The notes under the pieces are model-generated. The model did not search any database. It was not told where the DNA came from and worked only from the letters and a program-made list of their open reading frames with translations. A stretch of DNA of 64,000 bases from Desulfuromonadaceae bacterium (GTDB lineage: Bacteria > Desulfobacterota > Desulfuromonadia > Geobacterales > Pseudopelobacteraceae), in the NCBI GenBank assembly GCA_028683435.1, contig JAQUIG010000009.1, forward strand, positions 19,643 to 83,642, given 5' to 3'. Position 1 is the first letter of the stretch. Each line of letters starts with the position of its first letter. Below are positions 8,310-27,974 of this stretch, one piece after another. The position numbers and the translations under genes are program-made.

Positions 8310-8585
8310 ATGAATAAATCAGAGCTTATTGAGCAGTTGGCAGTGAAAAAGGATTTACCGATCAAGCGGGCGGAAGAGCTTGTTAATCTGGTTTTTTCTT
8401 CTATGGGCGAAGCGATGGTACAGGGTGAACGTATTGAAATTCGTGGCCTTGGCAGCTTTGTTATCAAAGAGTACGGGACGTATACGGGCCGGAATCCAAA
8501 AACAGGTGAGCCGATCAAGGTCAGTCCCAAAAAACTTCCTTTTTTCAAGGTTGGCAAAGAATTGAAAGAAATGGTGCTTGGATAA
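8310..8585 (+). CDS. IHF/HU-family DNA-bending protein (IHF-beta-like)
   Basis: A 91-residue nucleoid protein. It has the family N-terminal helices (MNKSELIEQLAVKKDLPIKRAEELVNLVF), the beta-sheet IEIRGLGSFVIKEY and the DNA-contacting arm GRNPKTGEPIKV. The IRGLGSF and KVSPKKLPFFKVGKEL features are closer to IHF-beta than to HU. IHF subunits act as architectural factors in sigma-54 promoter activation and other complexes. The short gap upstream (8258-8309) contains a GGGGGG tract directly before the start that may serve as ribosome-binding site. Confidence 0.92.
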   Translation: MNKSELIEQLAVKKDLPIKRAEELVNLVFSSMGEAMVQGERIEIRGLGSFVIKEYGTYTGRNPKTGEPIKVSPKKLPFFKVGKELKEMVLG

Positions 8586-25456: not shown

Positions 25457-27694
25457 TTACGCACATTCGGAATAGCCACAGACATGGCAGACTGAACAGC
25501 CACCCTCGTGCTCGACGATTCCTCCGCACTCCGGGCAGGCACCGCGTTCATGCCGGGTAGATTCATTTTCAATGTCATACCCGCTATCTACCAAATGATC
25601 CTGAATCGCTTTTGCCACCGCATCAGCGCAGGAAAGTACTCGGTTGTCGCCGAAGCCGGACGGGCAGTGACAGGAGATCCCCTGCAGTTGTTTCACCACT
25701 TGTCTGGCCTGAATGCCGCTACGCCAGGCGAGTGACACCAGACGGCCGATCGCCTCGCTTTGGGAAGCGGCGCATCCGCCAGCCTTGCCCATCGTGGTGA
25801 ACAGCTCAAATAAGCCGTTTTTGTCTTCGTTGATCGTGATATAGAGCGGGCCGCAACCGGTCTGCATCTGATGGGTAGACCCTTTCAGCGCTTTTGGACG
25901 TTCCCGTTTGACCGCTTTCTTTTCCTCTTCGACCGGTGTGGCGGCAACTGCTGCCTGCTCTTCTCTTTTGCCGGTCGACAGTACCTGTTCGTCTCTGGAG
26001 CCGTCCCGATAAATGGTGACACCCTTACAACCGGTTTCGTAGGCGAGCATGTAAACTTTTTCAACATCTTCGATAGTGGCGGAATTTGTGAAATTCACCG
26101 TTTTTGACACGGCATTGTCGGTGTAAAGCTGGAAGGCGGATTGCATCTGAATGTGGTATTCGGGAGATATCTCGTGAGAAGTCACAAATACGTTGCGGAT
26201 ATCCAGCGGGATTTCGCTGATGTCATGGACGGTACCGTGCTCGGCAATTTTCTTCATGAGTTCTTCCGAGTAGAAACCACGCTCCTTTGCAATTCTCTCG
26301 AAAATCGGGTTGACCTCGATCAGCACGTTCTTGTCCATGACGGTGCGGATGTAGGAAACAGCAAAGAGCGGTTCAACACCGGAAGACGCGTTGGCTATGA
26401 TCGAGATGGTGCCTGTCGGAGCGATTGTAGTGACGGTTGCGTTTCTTTGCGGAGGCGCTCCCTTTTTGTCAAAAATAGAGCCTTTGAAGTTGGGGAACGA
26501 ACCCCGCTTTTTGCCCAGTTCCTGTGATGCCAGGTGTCCTTCGTCATTTATGAGTTTCATCACCTTCTTGCCGAGTTTTACCGCCTCGTCAGAACAGTAT
26601 GGAATCCCGAGCAGAATCAGCATGTCGGCCCACCCCATGACACCCAGACCTATTTTACGGTTGGCGTGAGTCATGTCATGAATCTGCTGCAGCGGATAGT
26701 TGTTAGCCTCGATTACGTTATCTAAAAAGTGGACTGCGTTGTAAACGGTCTCGCGCAGCTTTTTCCAGTCTACTGTGCCATCCTTGATAAAGGTACCCAG
26801 GTTGATGGAACCGAGGTTACAGGATTCATACGGCAACAGAGGTTGTTCGCCACATGGATTGGTGGATTCGATCTCACCCACCAGAGGCGTCGGATTGTCG
26901 CGGTTCAAGCGGTCGAGAAAGACGATTCCAGGCTCGCCGTTCTCCCAGGCCTGCTTGACGATACGCTGGAATACCTTGCGGGCGTTAAGTGAGCCGCAAA
27001 CCTTTTTGTCACGGGGATTAATGAGATCGTATTCCTCATCCCGTTCTACAGCCTGCATGAACTTTTCGGTAAGTCCTACAGATATGTTAAAATTATTAAG
27101 TTGTTTTTGGTCGGCTTTGCACATGATAAAATCCATCACGTTGGGGTGATCAACCCTCAAAATTGCCATGTTTGCGCCGCGCCTTGTCCCCCCCTGTTTT
27201 ATTGTTTCTGTGGCGACATCAAAAACACGCATGAATGAGAGCGGGCCGCTCGAAATGCCGGTGGTTGTACTGACGACGTCGTTGGCCGGCCTCAGACGAG
27301 AAAATGAGAAGCCGGTGCCGCCGCCGGATTTGTGAATCAGTGCAGTATATTTGACAGCGTCAAATATTTCCTCCATTGAGTCCCCCACCGGCAGGACAAA
27401 GCAGGCCGAAAGTTGCCCCAGAGGACGTCCGGCATTCATGAGCGTAGGGGAGTTGGGGAGAAATTCGAAGCTGGTCATCATCCGATAAAAAGTATCCGAT
27501 AAATCATTTACATCAGCTTTCTTGTCAAAGATTTTATCGGCTGCCGCAATTGTGTCAGCCACTCGCCGAAACATGTCGGCTGGAGTCTCAAGGACCTTGC
27601 CGGTTTCGTCACGGCGCAGGTAGCGTTTTTCCAGTACTGTGGCGGCATTTTTTGTCAGGGAGGGAGGATTGTCGGATGAGGCACTTTTTTTCAT
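25457..27694 (-). CDS. nrdJ: Adenosylcobalamin-dependent ribonucleotide reductase (class II)
   Basis: Reduces ribonucleotides to deoxyribonucleotides with a B12 radical, independent of oxygen. The 745-residue protein has FLPNSPTLMNAGRPLGQLSACF, the KSGGGTGFSFSRLRP segment, the active-site motif NPCGEQPLLPYESCNLGSINL, and a C-terminal cysteine-rich tail (CPECGG, then CSVCHVCGYSEC). The ORF track begins 36 codons upstream, but AAGGAG lies 8 bases before ATG 27694, giving MKKSASSDNPPSL. The upstream stretch contains the promoter and NrdR-like boxes, so it is not coding. No nrdR gene occurs in the window. Confidence 0.95.
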   Translation of the reverse strand: MKKSASSDNPPSLTKNAATVLEKRYLRRDETGKVLETPADMFRRVADTIAAADKIFDKKADVNDLSDTFYRMMTSFEFLPNSPTLMNAGRPLGQLSACFVLPVGDSMEEIFDAVKYTALIHKSGGGTGFSFSRLRPANDVVSTTTGISSGPLSFMRVFDVATETIKQGGTRRGANMAILRVDHPNVMDFIMCKADQKQLNNFNISVGLTEKFMQAVERDEEYDLINPRDKKVCGSLNARKVFQRIVKQAWENGEPGIVFLDRLNRDNPTPLVGEIESTNPCGEQPLLPYESCNLGSINLGTFIKDGTVDWKKLRETVYNAVHFLDNVIEANNYPLQQIHDMTHANRKIGLGVMGWADMLILLGIPYCSDEAVKLGKKVMKLINDEGHLASQELGKKRGSFPNFKGSIFDKKGAPPQRNATVTTIAPTGTISIIANASSGVEPLFAVSYIRTVMDKNVLIEVNPIFERIAKERGFYSEELMKKIAEHGTVHDISEIPLDIRNVFVTSHEISPEYHIQMQSAFQLYTDNAVSKTVNFTNSATIEDVEKVYMLAYETGCKGVTIYRDGSRDEQVLSTGKREEQAAVAATPVEEEKKAVKRERPKALKGSTHQMQTGCGPLYITINEDKNGLFELFTTMGKAGGCAASQSEAIGRLVSLAWRSGIQARQVVKQLQGISCHCPSGFGDNRVLSCADAVAKAIQDHLVDSGYDIENESTRHERGACPECGGIVEHEGGCSVCHVCGYSECA

Positions 27695-27766
27695 AATGGA
27701 ACTCCTTGTTTTATAAGCAAACTGATGAATATGACTAAATGGATGTAGTGTGTTTGAAAGCCAAAA

Positions 27767-27821
27767 CCACAATATTTTGTGGATGGAGTGGAAATAAACC
27801 ACAACATGTATGTGGTGTCAA
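27767..27821 (-). promoter_or_regulatory. nrdJ promoter with two NrdR-box-like palindromes
   Basis: On the minus strand a perfect -35 TTGACA (27821-27816) is followed after 17 bases by TTTATT (27798-27793). The palindrome CCACAACATGTATGTGG (27799-27815) fills exactly the spacer. A second, CCACAATATTTTGTGG (27767-27782), lies just downstream. Their centres are about 32 bases apart, close to three helical turns, the arrangement known for NrdR boxes upstream of nrd genes. The first box departs somewhat from the usual 16-base form. Confidence 0.78.
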
Positions 27822-27974
27822 CAAATATATTTTGTAAAAATATAACATCTTGAAAGGACTGAAAAAGCTCAATATCTATATATAATGATACGTATTTTAA
27901 TTAAAAAATAACATTAAATTTACAGTTCGGGTGAATCATGGTAGTTGTTCAGTGATTCTATAAGGAGCTCCCGG

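Follow-up and report, generated by a model that had tools for sequence, protein, structure and literature searches.

NrdR operators consist of two 16-bp boxes set 14-17 bp (or 24-27 bp) apart, a spacing of 15-16 bp, or three helical turns, being the common type (PMC12051234). Published operators overlap the promoter, and the G-C pairs of their boxes are critical (PMC12051234, PMC9110341, PMC12176259). The Streptomyces coelicolor nrdRJ operator offers an instructive parallel to the locus described here: both serve a class II nrdJ, carry a pair of 16-bp boxes separated by about three helical turns, overlap the RNA polymerase site, and have the C and G of the proximal box nine bases apart (PMC9110341). 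At our locus, in contrast, nrdR lies outside the nrdJ operon, between a gene for a ComEB-like dCMP deaminase (below that model's cut-off) and ribD (identified from its translation), and in the distal box the left C is displaced by one base from the register. The E. coli nrdHIEF, nrdDG and nrdAB sites likewise have paired boxes with a 15-16 bp linker, but the E. coli targets belong to classes I and III (PMC12176259), whereas here the class III gene lacks a box pair.

The wider arrangement of reductase genes also has precedents. In 2004, the riboswitch half of the B12/ribonucleotide reductase (RNR) logic was reported for delta-proteobacteria, as control of nrdDG by a B12 element beside nrdJ (PMC545781), and a similar nrdRJ / nrdDG layout occurs in Propionibacterium acnes (PMC3848588). 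As here, the B12-independent reductase is under a cobalamin riboswitch in both, and the B12-dependent NrdJ is not; P. acnes, however, carries an additional nrd-box pair close to nrdDG, and none was found here. A literature search for NrdR in Geobacter returned nothing relevant.

We propose that a pair of boxes in the 64-kb window (the whole stretch of DNA analysed here) serves the dNTP-sensing repressor NrdR as its operator on a sigma-70-type nrdJ promoter, and put the probability of this predicted site at roughly 0.93. The reading draws on the absence of such pairs from 100 shuffled windows, the conservation of boxes and spacing, the match to the published operator, the presence of an intact nrdR, and the matches of a trained pair model.

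Layout of the predicted nrdJ promoter

The features of the locus are, in order of position:

25457..27694, minus strand: nrdJ (NF006417, 1277 bits; TIGR02504, 737 bits)
27701..27708, minus strand: nrdJ Shine-Dalgarno region, around an AAGGAG just upstream of the ATG; AAGGAG is conserved in the alignment
27767..27782, minus strand: proximal (downstream) predicted NrdR box CCACAAAATATTGTGG, predicted at about +4 to +19; C4 and G13 in 80/80 anchored loci
27793..27798, minus strand: predicted -10 hexamer TTTATT (TTTATT in 34/80 loci, TTAATT in 14/80)
27799..27814, minus strand: distal (upstream) predicted NrdR box CACATACATGTTGTGG; conserved in its right half, with the left half displaced by one base from the register
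27816..27821, minus strand: predicted -35 hexamer TTGACA (TTGACA in 67/80 loci, TTGACT in 13/80)
27843..27855, minus strand: IHF-like upstream element TTTCAAGATGTTA, 34 bp upstream of TTGACA, resembling WATCAANNNNTTR

The minus strand thus reads TTGACA, CCACATACATGTTGTGG, TTTATT, 10 bases, CCACAAAATATTGTGG, and then a 72-base leader to the nrdJ ATG (27694). An initial annotation had placed one palindrome exactly in the spacer between TTGACA and TTTATT and a second downstream, about 32 bases away, and both placements are accurate: the 17-bp upstream palindrome (27815-27799) makes up the whole 17-bp spacer, and the 16-bp downstream palindrome (27782-27767) starts 32 bp from the start of the first, leaving a 16-bp gap between the boxes. 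As NrdR boxes are 16 bp long, the upstream box in NrdR register is 27799-27814. The -10 hexamer is weak, with 4/6 consensus bases, and relatives most often have TTTATT or TTAATT at this position. The transcription start, and hence the position of the proximal box relative to it, is predicted from the -10 hexamer, the promoter itself being a prediction.

CCACA-N4..8-TGTGG palindromes occur only twice in the window, both times at the nrdJ promoter. First-order Markov shuffling of the window (n=100) yielded no pairs, and 0.07 single palindromes are expected per shuffled window. Across the whole genome (3.17 Mb in 97 contigs, 99.9% complete), CCACA-N6..7-TGTGG is found in three places, two of which are those at the nrdJ promoter.

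Conservation of the pair and competing readings

We compared 81 upstream regions, namely the window and 80 nrdJ loci with organism names from the Geobacterales and Syntrophales; 80 of the 81 were anchored by script, and the one left unanchored (L093) contains a similar pair by eye. In all 80 anchored loci TTGAC is present, at a distance of 23 nt (74 loci) or 24 nt (6 loci) from where the distal box ends, and the gap between the boxes is either 16 bp (51 loci) or 15 bp (29 loci), never anything else. The right-half core of the distal box, including its G13, is likewise retained in 80/80. Among 49 non-redundant Geobacterales, the box cores show 90-100% identity, against mostly 30-55% at positions past the proximal box. 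The conservation upstream of nrdJ that the initial annotation had looked to is therefore present across two orders, and the NrdR-type layout it proposed stands up as well: the spacing of 15 or 16 bp, the promoter overlap and the C4/G13 pair of the proximal box agree with the published operator (PMC12051234, PMC9110341).

Strict scoring with the published 16-mer consensus has no discriminating power: unrelated 500-bp pieces of the window can reach 20-24/32. The site was therefore assessed by conservation and with a trained pair model. The 48-column model (R1) finds a site in 56/58 genomes, its top match lying next to nrdJ; it finds none in G040, the only genome that lacks nrdJ, or in G002, whose nrdJ is a fragment with its start at a contig end. 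A regulon scan of the window's genome, by pair model and patterns, gives the nrdJ site 48.3 bits, a score that is partly circular given that the training rows include the window's own site, and the next match 12.7 bits. An independent model trained on Syntrophales only (R2) recognises the window locus weakly and in pieces, at best with 17.0 bits, the distal half scoring 12.2 bits; its best alignment joins the proximal box to a half-site further downstream.

This last pairing corresponds to the alternative that survives best, unlikely though we consider it: the working NrdR site would comprise the proximal box and a downstream box (about 27737-27752, minus strand, starting ACACTACAT), and the distal palindrome would belong to the promoter only, much as at E. 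coli nrdAB. A consensus scan of the window, with 24/32 matches, selects the same pairing as R2, and the precedent is a real one, since at nrdAB NrdR binds box 1 and box 2 rather than box 0 and box 1, and the weak box in the -10 region proved to lie outside the true NrdR site (PMC12176259). The relatives, however, point the other way: C4 and G13 of the downstream half-site occur together in 0/49 non-redundant relatives at spacers of 15-17 and in 4/49 at a spacer of 14, whilst G13 of the distal box is retained in 49/49. A third, downstream box was rejected as unconserved.

It is more improbable still that some other regulator with TGTGG-type sites binds the palindromes. The distal box does depart from the NrdR pattern in its left arm, but the proximal box matches 13/16 positions of the NrdR consensus with the diagnostic C4/G13 pair, the two boxes lie in phase, three helical turns apart, the gene downstream encodes an RNR, nrdR is universal in the group, and strong sites lie beside nrdJ and almost nowhere else. 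Chance symmetry arising in AT-rich promoter DNA can be dismissed for practical purposes, as single 13/16 consensus matches do occur in shuffled windows but the pair and its spacing are conserved in 80 anchored loci of two orders and the flanking DNA is not.

Two further pairs were seen in relatives. One, of NrdR type and scoring 31.5 bits, belongs to a second nrdJ-like promoter, which lies upstream of a hemagglutinin-like gene (L145:2405-2451, in G008:C102) and is possibly a transplanted promoter copy; the other NrdR-type pair, weaker at 23 bits, lies near the gene of a helix-turn-helix DNA-binding protein (L146:2455-2495, in G035:C64). At another nrdJ locus, a tRNA gene (Rfam tRNA, 71 bits) sits near nrdJ on the minus strand (L019:1338-1411).

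The distal box and the upstream element

The initial annotation described both boxes as CCACA/TGTGG palindromes, and this is so in the window, but the full 17-bp symmetry of the distal box is found in only 7/80 anchored loci; it is chiefly the right half, ATGTTGTGG, that is conserved. Compared across relatives, the symmetry of the upstream 17-bp palindrome is mostly fortuitous. In the canonical 16-mer the left C is base 4, at a distance of nine bases from G13. In the distal box it is found at position 3 instead in the window's genome and in 43/49 non-redundant Geobacterales, whereas C4 is present in all anchored Syntrophales; the lack of the canonical C4 here counts against the NrdR reading. 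In S. coelicolor, inverting the conserved G-C pairs of a box costs about 50-fold in affinity (PMC9110341). Taken together with the displaced C, this suggests that the distal half-site may be weaker in the Geobacterales, or that the distal box may be one base longer.

As a tentative extension, which we regard as rather less likely than a plain operator, the Geobacterales operator could be a modified one, in which the distal box carries an extra base between its half-sites, or does without the left contact. Binding of NrdR would then be asymmetric: the proximal box would act as the anchor, the box in the promoter spacer would make a weaker contact open to tuning, and IHF might assist by bending the DNA upstream.

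The IHF consensus is WATCAANNNNTTR. In the window, TTTCAAGATGTTA differs from it by one mismatch and precedes the nrdJ -35 hexamer by about 34 bp. An element with at most two mismatches occurs near -34 in 55/62 Geobacterales, against 15.5 in shuffles, a count that kinship inflates, and was not seen in Syntrophales. The genome encodes an IHF alpha-like protein (above one curated cut-off) and a beta-like one (below cut-offs). The conserved upstream element is suggestive of an IHF site. Six HU/IHF-family genes are present in the genome, and an IHF beta-like / HU-family gene lies within the window itself (8310-8576; 97 bits to PF00216, below the IHF cut-offs).

NrdR and the probable control of ribonucleotide reductases

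The gene downstream of the pair is nrdJ, which scores 1277 bits with NF006417 against a cut-off of 961. Its product is an adenosylcobalamin-dependent class II RNR of 745 aa without an ATP-cone, a domain (PF03477) that in the window's genome is found in NrdR and NrdD only. The genome contains exactly one intact nrdR, located at G000:C41:12954-13394 and above the TIGR00244 cut-off with 195.9 bits, in answer to the search that the initial annotation had called for. The protein has the Zn-ribbon with its CXXC pairs, D15, R17, the RRRR stretch at 26-29 and R37, and matches solved NrdR structures in the PDB at E ~1e-41; D15, R17, R26-R29 and R37 are the DNA-contact residues of NrdR (PMC9110341, PMC12176259). 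More broadly, nrdR was found in 58/58 genomes searched, in 56 of them above the curated cut-off, the matches in the other two being fragments. The presence of nrdR and the conservation of the pair support the proposal of the initial annotation that nrdJ is probably controlled by NrdR.

Work in other bacteria leads us to infer how nucleotide control, binding and repression would operate here. At high dATP, an NrdR tetramer carrying dATP and ATP would span both phased boxes, of which one occupies the -35/-10 spacer and the other covers the predicted transcription start, and would bend the DNA and exclude RNA polymerase; as dATP falls, NrdR would leave and nrdJ would be transcribed. Since NrdJ has no ATP-cone of its own, overall feedback by dATP on this enzyme probably comes mainly from NrdR.

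The other RNR of the genome is the class III NrdD (NF006126), and no class I NrdB (PF00268) was found. Contrary to the expectation that the same spaced pair would recur at other nrd genes, no NrdR pair was found upstream of nrdD, nor of nrdR itself, when both were inspected in the window's genome. Instead, nrdD is preceded by a cobalamin riboswitch (111.8 bits), so that in the presence of B12 nrdD would be silenced and nrdJ, putatively controlled by NrdR, would remain. The distribution of nrdD is patchy (3/58 genomes), with a riboswitch nearby in all three. The class III nrdD under its cobalamin riboswitch lies at L148:1100-3678 (G000:C39) on the minus strand; the glycyl-radical motif RVMGYHRP sits in a small ORF of its own, which starts at an ATG overlapping the stop codon of nrdD (ATGA), and in a relative (L149) the motif likewise occupies its own short frame.

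Judged on sequence, the candidate nrdJ site is an ordinary NrdR operator that leaves the accepted picture of NrdR unchanged, and the off-register distal box is the sole part of the finding that is not textbook. That box provides a natural test of NrdR's symmetry requirement. For the Geobacterales, the predicted operator would amount to a clear and testable dNTP feedback switch, acting on nrdJ, the RNR common to nearly all genomes searched.
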